Source of the DNA: Deltaproteobacteria bacterium
Lineage (GTDB): Bacteria; Desulfobacterota; Desulfarculia; Adiutricales; JAFDHD01
NCBI GenBank assembly: GCA_019308995.1
Contig: JAFDHD010000005.1
Span: 1-64,000 of the forward strand
DNA length: 64,000 nucleotides
Direction: 5' to 3'
Shown here piece by piece: positions 20,980 through 27,657 of the stretch; position 1 is the first letter of the stretch, and the number at the start of each line of letters is the position of its first letter. A model generated the notes under the pieces. The model was not told the DNA's origin. It saw nothing but the letters and a program-made list of their open reading frames with translations, and made no database searches. Both the position numbers and the translations under genes were made by a program.

Positions 20980-22702
20980 CTCATCTTTACCCACAAGTTT
21001 TTCTTTGTCACTCTTTCTTACAACTCGTTGAAATTACATAATAATTTACCATGAAAAAAAATCTAGACTTTTCAAGGTAAATATGGCATACCATATTATG
21101 TGAGTGCCAGATTCGTTCATACCGAAAAAATGCAATCCTTTTACCCTAATAGTGGTAATGGATTGAATGCTAAGCCGGGTCATGCCACAGAGGATATAGC
21201 AGAATGGGCCATGCGGCAATACAAAACCCTGGACCTCCCCGACGCTCGTTTGGAAAGAAGGTGTCTTAGGACTGTATTGACTTTGGCCAACAAACCTCAA
21301 GATAGTATTAACCAAGCTTCTGAGAACTGGGCGCAAGCCAAAGGTGCCTATCGATTTATTGAAAATGATCGAGTCACATCTGAATCCCTCCAGGCACCCA
21401 TTGGCGATGCGACCGCCGATGCTTGCGCCAATCAAGACACTATTATTGCGGTTCAGGATACCACCACCCTGAGCTTTGGCAGTGCACGCCAGGCTAAGGG
21501 ATTGGGAACGATTAACGACTCCTCTTCCGCCAGGGGCATGTTTTATCACCCTGTTTTGGCTCTTCGAGAAGACGGCCTCGCTCTCGGCCTTCTTGATCAG
21601 CAGCACTGGTGCCGGGAACCGGAAGTCAAACATAAAGCTAAAGACAGGTACAAACGATCCATCAATGAAAAAGAAAGCGGCAAATGGCTTAAAGGTGTGG
21701 CGGCTGCTAATTTGGCCTTGAAAACCAACCTGTCTAAAGATAAGCGCCCTAAAATCATTCATGTTTTTGACCGTGAAGGTGACGTGCACGAAGTCTTCCA
21801 ACTCATTGAGACGCTGCAAGACGGGGCCGTGATCCGTAGCGCCCATAACCGCCGGGTGGTCACTGACCATGGCCACGCTGATTACGCCCACGACTTGGTC
21901 CGTAAGGCTCCGCTTCTTGGTGAAATCACCATTGATGTCCCCCGAAAACCAGGCCAGAAAAAACGAAAAGCCACCCTTCAGCTTCGGGCCGTAAGAGTGA
22001 CTTTGACTCCAAAAAAACACAAACATCCCGACCGTTATCCCATCACTCTGACCCTGGTTGAAGTCCGGGAGATTATACCGCCAACCAAAACCACACCTCT
22101 TCACTGGCTGTTGTGGTCCAACGAGACCGTTCATGATCTCAATGGGGCTGGACGAATCATGCATATTTACACTATGCGCTGGAAGATTGAAGACCTTTTC
22201 TTGACCCTTAAACAAGGGTGTCGGATCGAGAAAGTTCAATTTGAAACCTCGGAACGCCTGGCCAAAGTCGTCTCATTACTTGCACCCATCGCCTTACGTA
22301 TCCTCCAATGCCGGGACTTGGCCCGGCTGGAACCCGAGGCACCAGGCACCGTGATTCTCAGCGAAGATGAGTGGAAAACTTTGTGGGCTTATATCCATAA
22401 AAAAACGCCTGCAGAGGGTCAATCTCCGCCAAGTTTAAGGCAAACCGTTTTATGGATCGGCCGCCTAGGGGGCCATCTGGGCCGAAAGTCAGACGGTATG
22501 CCAGGGGTAAAAACCTTATGGCTAGGCCTTAAGGACCTGACCATCATGACGATAGGGTACAAAATAGCTCAAAGCTAAAGCCAAAAATATTTTCTATTTA
22601 AATTCCTTGGTAAATCCTCTATATTCAAACACCGATATTGCTTCTATTTGCCTACTCCCTTACCCTTACATCCATTTTTTAACTCTTGTGGGTAAAGATG
22701 AG
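20980..22702 (+). mobile_element. IS4-type insertion sequence (1723 bp) with intact ends
   Basis: Perfect 18-bp terminal inverted repeats (CTCATCTTTACCCACAAG at 20980-20997 and its complement at 22685-22702) bracket one full-length transposase gene. The 8-bp direct repeat CGCAAGGG on both sides marks the insertion. Undamaged repeats, identical target copies and an open transposase frame point to a recent, possibly still mobile copy. No passenger gene is present. Confidence 0.9.
21100..22578 (+). CDS. IS4 family DDE transposase
   Basis: Up to 492 residues from GTG 21100; ATG at 21130 (482 residues) is an equally possible start, and neither has a clear ribosome binding site. The N-terminal region resembles the Tn5/IS50-type DNA-binding domain (ALDARLERRCLRT-like, WAQAKGAYRFIEND). 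Catalytic residues are visible: Asp in VQDTTTLS, Asp in VFDREGD, and the Glu in the IS4 Y-(2)-R-(3)-E-(6)-K signature YTMRWKIEDLFLTLK. A long antisense frame over this gene is a shadow. Confidence 0.93.
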   Translation: MSARFVHTEKMQSFYPNSGNGLNAKPGHATEDIAEWAMRQYKTLDLPDARLERRCLRTVLTLANKPQDSINQASENWAQAKGAYRFIENDRVTSESLQAPIGDATADACANQDTIIAVQDTTTLSFGSARQAKGLGTINDSSSARGMFYHPVLALREDGLALGLLDQQHWCREPEVKHKAKDRYKRSINEKESGKWLKGVAAANLALKTNLSKDKRPKIIHVFDREGDVHEVFQLIETLQDGAVIRSAHNRRVVTDHGHADYAHDLVRKAPLLGEITIDVPRKPGQKKRKATLQLRAVRVTLTPKKHKHPDRYPITLTLVEVREIIPPTKTTPLHWLLWSNETVHDLNGAGRIMHIYTMRWKIEDLFLTLKQGCRIEKVQFETSERLAKVVSLLAPIALRILQCRDLARLEPEAPGTVILSEDEWKTLWAYIHKKTPAEGQSPPSLRQTVLWIGRLGGHLGRKSDGMPGVKTLWLGLKDLTIMTIGYKIAQS

Positions 22703-23070: not shown

Positions 23071-23910
23071 CTAGTCCTGCAAGCGGCTGCGCACCCAGTT
23101 CTGATAGGCTTGCAGGCCCTTAACCAGCGCCCGAGTGATGGCGTCCCGGTAAGCCTGGCTCAAAAGCCTTCTTTCCTCTTCCGGATTGGTCAAGTACCCC
23201 ACCTCAATCAGCACCGCCGGGCGGGCCGCGCCAGCCAGTACAGACAACGGCAGCCCCAGCACCTCCCGACTCCTGATCCGAAGCACCTCACTTAAGGCCT
23301 GGTTGACTTCACCGGCCAGCCGCCGACTGGAAATAATAAAAGGGCTCTGCGCCAGGGCCCATTCCACGGGCTGCCCCGGGGCTGGCGGTTTCAAGGATAC
23401 CCGATCCGCCAGGCCCTCTTGAAGGCTGTAATCCTGAAAAAAAACTCCGAAACCGGACTGCGCCCGCTGGGCCGCCCCCCCGGCGTGGAGGGACAGGAAA
23501 AGGTGCCCCTTGACGCGATTCACCACCGCGGTCCTTTCAGCCAAACTGGGATTTTCATCCCCGGTCCGGGTCAAAAAAACCCGCACCCCAAGCTCATCTT
23601 CCAGAACCATTTTAAGCTGACGGGCAAGCGCCAGGGTCAGGCGGCTTTCCGTCAGCCCGGTGGGGCCGGTCACACCAGTGTCCTCTCCGCCGTGGCCCGG
23701 ATCAATGACCACCCGTTCTACGGTTTCTGACACCTGGCCCTGAAGCCGCTCAGCCTCTTCTGCCGCTATTGGCGAAGTGGCATAACAAAAGGCCGTAAGA
23801 GCCAGGAATATCACAGAATAAACGCGCACAGTCAAACCACGACGTATGAAATCATGTCCCTCTGGCAGTGTCAAGAATTTTATCAGGCAGGGAACACGGC
23901 TTCTTGACAT
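23071..23910 (-). CDS. N-acetylmuramoyl-L-alanine amidase, Amidase_3 (AmiC-like)
   Basis: Up to 279 residues. Zinc-site motifs are [18 protein letters not shown] and [11 protein letters not shown], the standard Amidase_3 set. The enzyme cuts the amide between MurNAc and the peptide stem in the cell wall. The N-terminal hydrophobic stretch [21 protein letters not shown] is a signal peptide. It would fit better at the N-terminus if translation began at GTG 23829, but no ribosome binding site decides between 23829 and ATG 23910. It diverges from the acidic protein gene. Confidence 0.88.
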
Positions 23911-23976
23911 CCACCAGTGCCTGTGCTAGTCTTGAGAGGTCTAATCAAAGATTTCCCATTTTTTTGGAGGTATGCC

Positions 23977-24786
23977 GTGGCCGACGAAAATGACACGCGT
24001 TCAGGTAACGGTACAGACCTTGATGTAACTAAAATCCTGGACGAGGATGTTGATTTTGAACTGGAAGACGTCCTGGTCGAGGAGGATGAATCTGCCTTGA
24101 GCGCGGTAGTGGAACCGGCTGAGGCCGGGGCTTCTTCCGAGGAGACCGAACGCGGTCTCACCCTGGAAGACATTGTTTTTAGAGATGAATTTGAGGCTCA
24201 AGTAGAAGGGGAAGTTGATTTTGAGCTTGAGGAGGAGGCCGAAAAGGGGGAGTTGAGCTTTGACGAGGAAGTCCAAACTCCGGATACGCCCGGTTTGGAA
24301 GAAGTTGAGGAAGACCTTGATTTTGAACTGGATGAGGTCGTCGAGGAGGCTCCTGAGATGATCGGCGCCGAGGCTGAAGCTCCTTCGGAAGAGGAAGACC
24401 TTGATTTTGGACTGGAGGACATCATTAAGGAGGCTCCTGAGGCCATGGAAGCCGAACCCGAAGCTCCTTCCCTCGAAGTCGAGGAAGCGGATGTTTTTGA
24501 ACCAGAAGAGTTTCCTGAAGCGGTTGCCGAACCGGCCGAGGAGATACCTGCCGCTCTCATAAGCGAGGCAGGGCCGGTGGATGAACGGTCTCCAGCGACT
24601 GAGATGGCCCGGAGGCCCGGTGGTGTGGAAGTCCCTGCCCTGGATCAGGAACGGCTGGAGGCGATCGTCAAAGAAACCGTCCGGGAGACGGTCAGCCAGG
24701 TCCTGGAAGGCATACTGCCTGGCGTGATCGAGGAGGTTGTGACCCGGGAGATTGAAAAACTGCGGGCCGAACTGGAGGAGATTTGA
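23977..24786 (+). CDS. Acidic repeat protein with C-terminal helical region, function unknown
   Basis: 269 residues from GTG 23977, which has GGAGG (23966-23970) six bases upstream; the ATG at 23972 is out of frame. A region of about 180 residues is dominated by Glu and Asp. It holds at least four degenerate repeats around (D/E)-(V/L)-D-F-(E/G)-L-(E/D), for example EDVDFELEDV, GEVDFELEEE, EDLDFELDEV and EDLDFGLEDI. The last 60 residues are predicted amphipathic helices (VKETVRETVSQVLEGILPG, then VTREIEKLRAELEEI). This acidic linker plus C-terminal helix layout recalls polar scaffold proteins such as PopZ, but I have no direct match. Confidence 0.8.
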   Translation: MADENDTRSGNGTDLDVTKILDEDVDFELEDVLVEEDESALSAVVEPAEAGASSEETERGLTLEDIVFRDEFEAQVEGEVDFELEEEAEKGELSFDEEVQTPDTPGLEEVEEDLDFELDEVVEEAPEMIGAEAEAPSEEEDLDFGLEDIIKEAPEAMEAEPEAPSLEVEEADVFEPEEFPEAVAEPAEEIPAALISEAGPVDERSPATEMARRPGGVEVPALDQERLEAIVKETVRETVSQVLEGILPGVIEEVVTREIEKLRAELEEI

Positions 24787-24858: not shown

Positions 24859-24892
24859 AAGGGATTGGCCCGAGGCTGATCCCTTCTTTTTT
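24859..24892 (+). terminator. Rho-independent terminator upstream of valS
   Basis: AAGGGAT (24859-24865) pairs with ATCCCTT (24879-24885), followed by CTTTTTT. It separates the acidic protein gene from valS. Confidence 0.65.
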
Positions 24893-24990: not shown

Positions 24991-27657
24991 ATGACGACCG
25001 AAAAACTGGATAAGGCCTACGAGCCGCAAAAGGTTGAAGAGCGGTTTTATAGATACTGGGAAGAAGGCGGATATTTTCGGGCGGATGAAAACAGTACCGA
25101 GGAGCCTTATACCATTGTCATCCCTCCGCCCAATGTAACCGGTACCCTTCATCTGGGACACGCCCTGGACAACACGCTGCAGGACATCCTGATCCGGTAT
25201 CACCGCATGAAAGGGTATAACGCCCTGTGGCTGCCCGGCACGGATCATGCCGGTATTGCGACTCAGAATGTCATGGAACGCCAGCTGGTCGAGGAAGGCA
25301 CCTCCCGGGAGGAGCTGGGCCGGGAAAAGTTTGCCGCCCGCATCTGGGAGTGGCGCAGGCGGTATGGAGGCATCATCATCAACCAGTTGAAACGCCTCGG
25401 TTCTTCCTGCGACTGGAGCCGGGAGCGTTTCACCATGGATGAAGGGCTTTCGGCCGCGGTGAAGGAGGTCTTTGTCAGTCTTTATGAGCAGGGCCTCATT
25501 TATCAAGGAAACCGCATCATCAACTGGTGCCCCCGCTGCCAGACCGCGCTGGCTGACATAGAAGTCGAACACGAAAACCTCAAGGCTCATCTGTATTATG
25601 TCCGCTATCCCCTGGCCGAAGGCGACGGGCATCTGGTCGTGGCCACCACGCGTCCCGAGACCCTGCTCGGGGATACTGCCGTGGCGGTCAATCCTCAGGA
25701 TTCCCGATACAAAGATTTCGTGGGCCGCAAGGTTGTTCTGCCTGTATTAAAGAGGCAGATCCCTGTTATTACCGATGATTATGTGGACCTGGAGTTCGGC
25801 ACCGGGGCCCTGAAGATAACCCCGGCCCATGACCCGAACGACTTCGAGATCGGGCTGAAGCATGACCTGCCTTCTGTCAGGTGTATTGACGACGTGGGCC
25901 GTATGAACGAGGAAGCCGGTCCTTATCAAGGGCAGGATCGGTTTGAATGCCGCGAAAACATCGTGGCTGACCTCGAAAAGGAAGGGCTTCTTGAAAGAAT
26001 CGAAGATTATCAGCACGCCGTGGGTCACTGCTACCGCTGCAAGACAATGGTTGAGCCCACCCTTTCCAAGCAGTGGTTCGTCAAGGTCAAGCCGCTGGCT
26101 GAAAAGGCCGTGCAGGCCGTGGAACAAGGCCGCACCCGCATCATCCCGCCCAACTGGGAAAAGACTTTCTTCGACTGGATGAACAATATCAGGGACTGGT
26201 GTGTTTCGCGTCAGATCTGGTGGGGTCACCGCATCCCGGCCTACTACTGCCAGGACTGCGACGAGGTCATTGTCAGCCGCGAGCCGGTGGAAGTTTGTCC
26301 CGCCTGCCAGGGCTCGAAGATCGAACAGGATTCGGACGTCCTGGACACCTGGTTCTCGTCAGGCCTCTGGCCCTTCTCTACCCTCGGCTGGCCGGAAAAA
26401 ACCAAAGACCTGGAGGTGTTTTATCCGACCACCGTCCTGGTGACCGCCTTTGATATCATTTTCTTCTGGGTGGCCAGGATGATGATGCTGGGGATTCACT
26501 TCATGGGTGATGTTCCGTTTCGAGAGGTGTACATCCATGCCTTGATCCGTGATCCTGAAGGCCAGAAGATGTCCAAATCCAAAGGCAACGTCACCGACCC
26601 TCTGGAAATTATGGAAAGATATGGCACAGACGCCTTTCGTTTCACCCTGACCGTCCTGGCGGCCAAGGGACGGGACATTCGCTTGTCTGAGGAGCGCATC
26701 GCCGGATATGCCCACTTTGTCAACAAGCTCTGGAACGCCGCCCGCTTTACCCTGATGAACCTGGAGGGCTTCAGCCCGGAGCGGCTTAAACGGCCTGTTC
26801 TGGATGAAAAGGCCCTGACCCTGGCTGACGCCTGGATCATGAGCCGGATATCCTCCATAACGGCCGAAGTCGAAGAACACCTGGCTGGTTATGATTTTGA
26901 CCGGATGGCCGGCTCCCTGTACCAGTTCGTGTGGCATGAATTCTGTGACTGGTATCTGGAACTGGCCAAGCCGGTGCTTTACGGGGAGGACCCCATCGCC
27001 AGAAGGCAGACCCAGGCCGTGCTGGCTCACGCGCTCTCGGTCATCCTGCGGCTGCTCCATCCAATCATGCCTTTTATCACCGAGAGGATCTGGCAGGCCC
27101 TGCCCGGGACAGACGAAAGCATCATGATCGCTCCTTTCCCCTCCCCGCAGGCCGGTAGGCCTGACCCCGAGGCCGAGCGGCGCATGGCGCTCATTCAGGG
27201 CGTCGTTACGGCGGTCCGTAACATCCGGGGGGAGATGAACGTCCCGCCTTCACAGGAGGTTGAAGTCATCGCCATGGACGATAACCCGGAGAACCGGCAG
27301 CTCCTTAAGCAGCAAAGGGGAGACATCCTGAAACTGGTCCGAGGCAAATCCCTTGAGGTCGCCCCTCCCCAAAAAAAACCAGAAGGCGCCGCGGCCGCGG
27401 TCGCCGGGGCGGTCGAGATCTTCGTCAAGCTAAAAGGCATAATTAACCTTGAGAAAGAAGCTCGCCGCCTGCAAAAGGAACTGGAAAAGGTCGCGAAGGA
27501 GATCGCCCGGTCGGGCCAGAAGCTGGCCAATGAAGATTTTCTGGCCAAAGCTCCGGCTGAAGTCGTGACGCGGGAAAAGGAAAAGAACCGGCTTTTGAAC
27601 GAAAAAAAGGAGAAGCTGGCCATGAACCTCGAACGAGTGGAAGCCCTGAGAAGGTGA
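24991..27657 (+). CDS. valS: Valyl-tRNA synthetase
   Basis: 888 residues, the usual bacterial length. The class I signatures are HLGH (residues 54-57, in GTLHLGHAL) and KMSKS (526-530). The editing domain lies between (VVATTRPETLLGDTAVAV). The C-terminal coiled-coil arm with heptads (LEKEARRLQKELEKVAKEI) is present, as expected for ValRS. It charges tRNA-Val with valine. It overlaps or abuts nadC, so the two are probably on one transcript. Confidence 0.98.
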   Translation: MTTEKLDKAYEPQKVEERFYRYWEEGGYFRADENSTEEPYTIVIPPPNVTGTLHLGHALDNTLQDILIRYHRMKGYNALWLPGTDHAGIATQNVMERQLVEEGTSREELGREKFAARIWEWRRRYGGIIINQLKRLGSSCDWSRERFTMDEGLSAAVKEVFVSLYEQGLIYQGNRIINWCPRCQTALADIEVEHENLKAHLYYVRYPLAEGDGHLVVATTRPETLLGDTAVAVNPQDSRYKDFVGRKVVLPVLKRQIPVITDDYVDLEFGTGALKITPAHDPNDFEIGLKHDLPSVRCIDDVGRMNEEAGPYQGQDRFECRENIVADLEKEGLLERIEDYQHAVGHCYRCKTMVEPTLSKQWFVKVKPLAEKAVQAVEQGRTRIIPPNWEKTFFDWMNNIRDWCVSRQIWWGHRIPAYYCQDCDEVIVSREPVEVCPACQGSKIEQDSDVLDTWFSSGLWPFSTLGWPEKTKDLEVFYPTTVLVTAFDIIFFWVARMMMLGIHFMGDVPFREVYIHALIRDPEGQKMSKSKGNVTDPLEIMERYGTDAFRFTLTVLAAKGRDIRLSEERIAGYAHFVNKLWNAARFTLMNLEGFSPERLKRPVLDEKALTLADAWIMSRISSITAEVEEHLAGYDFDRMAGSLYQFVWHEFCDWYLELAKPVLYGEDPIARRQTQAVLAHALSVILRLLHPIMPFITERIWQALPGTDESIMIAPFPSPQAGRPDPEAERRMALIQGVVTAVRNIRGEMNVPPSQEVEVIAMDDNPENRQLLKQQRGDILKLVRGKSLEVAPPQKKPEGAAAAVAGAVEIFVKLKGIINLEKEARRLQKELEKVAKEIARSGQKLANEDFLAKAPAEVVTREKEKNRLLNEKKEKLAMNLERVEALRR

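Follow-up and report, generated by a model that had tools for sequence, protein, structure and literature searches.

The 64,000-nucleotide stretch of DNA analyzed here (hereafter the window), which appears to originate from the genome of a sulfate-reducing member of the Desulfobacterota (dsrA of this genome scores over its curated cut-off), harbors upstream of valS a gene for an acidic protein that is, in our judgment, likely a distant relative of PopZ encoded at the popZ locus, and a PopZ-type hub outside of the Alphaproteobacteria. PopZ serves as a leading model for bacterial condensates and pole organizers. A 2022 paper on condensates contains the statement that PopZ is only found in alphaproteobacteria (PMC9512792), and we found no report of PopZ outside this class in the open literature; a PopZ-related variant elsewhere is therefore new, and such a family is of wider interest than the single gene in the window.

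Architecture of the valS-linked protein and its C-terminal tail

The 269-residue open reading frame runs on the forward strand from a GTG start at position 23977 to a stop codon at 24784–24786 (23977–24786), with a Shine–Dalgarno-like GGAGG read in the sequence 6 nt before the start (23966–23970). A first-pass annotation had placed here, beside valS, a Glu/Asp-rich chain with a helical C-terminus, and both descriptions are borne out. The protein contains 94 acidic and 15 basic residues, with a computed pI of 4.05. Residues 1–220 (23977–24636) are 36.8% acidic, 4.1% basic, and 7.3% Pro and are predicted to be disordered from this composition and from an AlphaFold2 model obtained with a 53-sequence alignment (pLDDT mostly <55), which is the outcome of the disorder prediction that the annotation had proposed as a check. 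The same model predicts one long helix spanning residues 224–268 (24646–24780) with pLDDT values of 91–98, the rest falling below about 55.

On the same strand, 204 nt from the stop codon, begins valS (valyl-tRNA synthetase, 24991–27657; NCBIfam PRK05729, 1274 bits), a syntenic marker shared with alphaproteobacterial popZ, and this is followed by nadC, which encodes quinolinate phosphoribosyltransferase. The neighbor on the other side is a divergent N-acetylmuramoyl-L-alanine amidase gene on the reverse strand (23071–23910). A 492-residue open reading frame that by eye looks like an insertion-sequence transposase lies ≈1.4 kb before the gene (21100–22578), and a terminator-like stem at 24859–24885 is not above chance (1 found versus 1.4 in shuffled sequences).

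A Pfam search with the window protein returned DUF2497 (PF10691), described as the conserved C-terminal domain of PopZ (PMC5182065), over residues 224–262 with 29.7 bits against a cut-off of 27, and neither a second domain nor Response_reg. This match is confined to positions 35–73 of the 75 in the model, and thus the H2 part of PopZ is not seen. We set aside a first alphaproteobacterial profile that included acidic columns and so matched partly by composition, and searched instead with a tail-only model of the PopZ helix, for which 61 of the 62 PopZ sequences from alphaproteobacteria were used. Alignment of 54 tails of the family described below with alphaproteobacterial PopZ tails in hhalign gave a probability of 96.5 and a score of 41.8 over 48 columns, compared to 16.1 for the best of 100 column shuffles and 13.3 for the reversed profile. 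Scores of 42.3 and 40.1 were obtained without the families nearest to PopZ, and 33.9 with only the 16 receiver-bearing members, where the best of 60 shuffles for each reduced set reached 14.8–15.3. On the strength of these sequence comparisons, we regard the C-terminal helix of the window protein as homologous to the oligomerization tail of PopZ. The first-pass annotation had noted a resemblance to polar organizing scaffolds and had left the family unrecognized; the DUF2497 match, the tail profile, and synteny with valS now lend this resemblance the support of homology and identify the protein as a divergent relative of PopZ.

Identity to the window protein over the last 60 residues is low, mostly 12 to 37%, and the whole-protein model NF052660 (PopZ_fam, NCBIfam) scores 17 bits on the window protein against a cut-off of 125. 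A six-frame search of 395 genomes of the phylum with PF10691 returned two matches at an E-value of 0.003 and none over the cut-off, and at an E-value of 0.01 this model detects 4 of 60 relatives in one test and 6 of 53 family members in another. PF10691 by itself is nearly blind outside of alphaproteobacteria, and for this reason the family counts given below rest on locus-based profiles. The window protein used as a query retrieved zero relatives from the genome contigs and zero matches in a sequence search of the PDB.

Synteny with valS and distribution of the family

Published descriptions place valS just downstream of popZ in Caulobacter, Agrobacterium, and Magnetospirillum. Of the 53 alphaproteobacterial loci analyzed here, 40 have valS after popZ in the same orientation, separated by −22 to 198 nt, and the remaining 13 have no valS within the sequence stretch examined. 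Within the phylum of the window, valS was located in 279 of 297 genomes, and within its order in 34 of 41. The sample analyzed in detail comprises 101 genomes from 51 families in which the sequence preceding valS spans at least 600 nt; another four genomes, in which valS had <600 nt upstream, were dropped before counting. This sample is not random, with 25 genomes from one sister family and the others representing best valS matches or one or more genomes per family. Six-frame open reading frames of at least 60 residues in these loci gave 1607 unique sequences, 181 of which lie just upstream of valS on the valS strand. When the alphaproteobacterial tail-only model was run against these 1607 sequences, 28 of its best 29 matches were upstream of valS (hypergeometric probability 4e-28), the 29th being a homologue on a contig without valS (L119, genome G003). 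An iterated profile search that started from the last 50 residues of the window protein converged on 58 of the 1607, of which 57 are directly upstream of valS, one is again the G003 protein, and none is found elsewhere; the next non-valS sequence has an E-value of 2.8.

By these profiles, the gene is present at valS in 53 of the 101 genomes and 33 of the 51 families, a conservative count since open reading frames with a shortened or missed tail (e.g., G269 and L068) were left out. In the sister family within the same order, none of the 25 sampled genomes has the gene at valS, and its occurrence is thus not universal. A whole-genome search with the tail alignment gave matches at an E-value of 0.001 in 112 of 198 genomes from the phylum. 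In 66 of the 73 genomes for which both were located, the tail precedes valS by ≤1 kb. The latter figure combines 66 of 69 paired rows with four genomes inspected by eye (G070, G071, G143, and G230), none of which has the tail there and two of which have valS at a contig edge. Alignments of the family include 53 (A1, partly masked G170 omitted) or 52 (A2, G170 and G049 omitted) of 54 members.

Several family genes are located away from valS (L283–L287). Two of these, L283 and L284, encode receiver-bearing members, and in both the next gene is of one kind (trpD-like, by eye) and not valS, which indicates that the gene moved in that lineage. Two short proteins of 112 and 125 residues (L273 and L282), also not beside valS, contain little beyond two copies of the tail. 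Finally, seven very acidic proteins from Pseudomonadota with weak DUF2497 matches (L270, L271, L272, L277, L278, L280, and L281) are encoded directly before valS; in four of these the N-terminus includes a SMEEVLNSLESML-like stretch reminiscent of PopZ H1, the remaining three are truncated at the start, and all seven look like intermediates between alphaproteobacterial PopZ and the family of the window protein.

Motifs of the disordered region and comparison with PopZ

The window protein resembles PopZ in its C-terminal helical tail, its acidic disordered middle, and the position of valS, which in both cases is the next gene on that strand. Beyond this, a majority of the wider family carries a DDVLELTEVVEE-like motif within the disordered region, as PopZ does. 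The pattern [IVL][LIVM][DE]LT precedes the tail in 45 of 62 alphaproteobacterial PopZ sequences and belongs to a 12-residue stretch with the consensus DDVLELTEVVEE. When scored against an acidic background, a matrix of this stretch detects sites scoring ≥10 in 34 of 54 family members versus 0.96 expected from shuffled sequences, with EEIIELTEVVEE and EEVLELVDVVEE as examples. A MAFFT alignment of 53 full-length proteins contains, besides the tail, a majority block EEIIELxDxVEE, and the conserved element of the other members that is comparable to DFEL reads EEIIELTEVVEE.

The first-pass annotation had also claimed at least four DFEL-type repeats in the window protein, and four are indeed found. 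The pattern [DE]x[DE]FxL[DE] matches DVDFELE (residues 24–30; 24046–24066), EVDFELE (residues 79–85; 24211–24231), DLDFELD, followed by EVVEE (residues 113–119; 24313–24333), and DLDFGLE (residues 141–147; 24397–24417), all on the forward strand, whereas shuffling of residues 1–215 yields a mean of 0.034 matches and not one of 20,000 shuffles has four. Repeats 3 and 4 lie within two direct 80-nt DNA copies (24307–24386 and 24391–24470, together 24307–24470 on the forward strand) that are 80% identical and 84 nt apart, and part of the repetition is therefore a recent tandem duplication. Lack of conservation of the repeat spacing, which the annotation had named as evidence against its reading, is half borne out: the DFxL form is repeated in G001, of the same genus, and G003, of the same order, but in none of the other members, and spacing within the window protein is uneven (55, 34, and 28 residues). 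Two of 62 alphaproteobacterial PopZ sequences have DFxL, with one copy each. The G003 protein (L119:2–1060) has five DFxL copies in an open reading frame cut by the contig end, and the gene that follows it is, by eye, CheA-like and not valS.

We considered whether the DFEL repeats simply reproduce the PopZ motif, an idea that failed a strict test. The best 12-mer in the window protein, DLDFELDEVVEE, is one of the DFEL repeats and scores 3.9 with the alphaproteobacterial matrix, which is not significant (p = 0.28); the phylum's own matrix gives p = 0.04–0.16, and the DFEL-bearing relative in G003 gives p > 0.9 with both matrices. With the phylum matrix, the four repeats rank 1, 2, 3, and 5 or 1, 2, 3, and 6 among the 12-mers of the window protein, depending on the background used. 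This ranking is suggestive, and the repeats may be multiplied, altered copies of an EEIIELTEVVEE-type motif.

Other features set the window protein apart from PopZ. The N-terminal H1 client helix of PopZ (TMEEILASI type, identified by pattern; PDB 6xry is an N-terminal construct) is present in 53 of 62 alphaproteobacterial PopZ sequences and in none of the 54 family members. The Pro content of the disordered part is 7.3% (residues 1–220) versus a mean of 23% in the disordered region of Caulobacterales PopZ; the acidic fraction, 0.368 versus 0.29, is in keeping with PopZ (means of 0.23 Pro and 0.29 acidic as given in PMC9512792). The window protein additionally has the four DFEL repeats and matches only the last part of DUF2497. 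Given the absence of H1, the PopZ_fam score of 17 versus 125 bits, and the lower Pro content, the name PopZ is not simply applicable by the features tested; the window protein is a PopZ-related variant that probably works like PopZ.

Proposed function, receiver-bearing relatives, and alternative explanations

PMC9512792 assigns three tasks to three parts of PopZ: oligomerization and condensation to the C-terminal helical region, tuning of fluidity to the acidic disordered region, and client binding to an N-terminal helix. In the mechanism we propose for the window protein, the tails would self-associate into a meshwork or condensate, the 220-residue acidic disordered region would keep this assembly fluid, and short hydrophobic–acidic motifs displayed by this region, the DFEL repeats in particular, would provide several weak docking sites for clients; the first-pass annotation had suggested that the repeat could bind a basic partner. 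The assembly may gather at the cell pole or in nucleoid-free space and act there as a hub, possibly serving ParB–parS or signaling proteins. The genome of the window encodes ParA and ParB, which makes an anchor for ParB–parS possible; the parA–parB pair (L295:440–2066) represents possible clients of the scaffold. Without the PopZ helix H1 to bind clients, the protein must have a set of clients other than that of Caulobacter. In its proposed role as a platform at the pole where clients, ParB among them, are gathered, the window protein would resemble the polar hubs HubP of Vibrio cholerae, which has been described as evolutionarily unrelated to PopZ, and DivIVA.

A receiver domain (Response_reg) precedes the same acidic linker and tail in 19 of 53 family members, and these proteins often end in WEVVP..AE..IKEEI. 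This N-terminal fusion creates a RomR-like layout that could respond to phosphorylation. RomR, a polarity hub in Myxococcus and Bdellovibrio, is described as a receiver followed by a disordered linker and a helical, Glu-rich C-terminus, with homologs that include Geobacter and Pelobacter; its linker and C-terminus thus resemble, by description, those of the family of the window protein, and we treat the link to RomR, compared by its description, as a lead. Receiver-bearing relatives and the cheA-like gene next to the G003 member make a role in motility or signaling a plausible alternative. The window protein could then be a RomR-type polarity or signaling output protein that lost its receiver or never had one, acting as a hub in motility or pilus polarity and not as an anchor of the centromere. 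The domain order of the 19 receiver-bearing members speaks for this, as does a published account in which the C-terminal region of RomR suffices for oligomerization and polar targeting; yet neither the window protein nor most members have a receiver, and should the two tails belong to a single family, RomR would not conflict with the PopZ reading. We consider this explanation unlikely on its own. A Trp and a Pro are invariant in the C-terminus of RomR, and the window tail has Pro but no Trp.

Two further explanations dispense with a polar scaffold of common descent. Acidic composition and Glu-rich helices evolve easily, and with identities over the last 60 residues of mostly 12 to 37% the window protein might be an acidic disordered protein of separate origin whose end is a generic charged coiled coil; such convergence is, however, not expected to yield a constant position before valS, a profile match far above that of column shuffles of the same composition, and a short motif shared by the disordered part of most members, and it strikes us as very improbable. 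The conserved adjacency to valS could instead mean that the gene is kept there because its product is a partner or regulator of valyl-tRNA synthetase or of translation. We give this last explanation hardly any credence, since some genomes have the family gene elsewhere than at valS (e.g., L283–L287) and the valS-linked popZ of alphaproteobacteria is described as encoding a pole organizer.

Kinship with PopZ, the reading that we prefer for the window protein, can be extended to RomR. A single ancestral valS-linked scaffold may have been the source of alphaproteobacterial PopZ as well as of the receiver scaffolds of RomR type in the former deltaproteobacteria. The PopZ tail and the C-terminus of RomR would then represent one oligomerization and pole-targeting domain, DDVLELTEVVEE would be a client-binding motif of ancient origin, and the window protein would be a form that lacks the receiver and has multiplied a derived motif, DFEL, to raise its valency; we advance this scenario tentatively, as having somewhat less than an even chance of being correct. 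If a PopZ-type family does occupy the same locus in 33 of 51 sampled families of another phylum, this pole organizer would be much older, and its essential parts would be the tail, the acidic disorder, and one short motif, to which individual lineages added the H1 helix, the receiver, or the DFEL repeats. A testable link to RomR would also be at hand, and a candidate chromosome or polarity hub is named in bacteria that include sulfate reducers. Finally, two valS-linked family members of 321 residues, both encoded on the reverse strand (L293:1004–1969 in G177 and L294:800–1765 in G149), harbor approximately four tandem copies of the tail with the repeat unit W..SEG..VLNQ...E..PRIA......EIEKL and represent a natural high-valency version.
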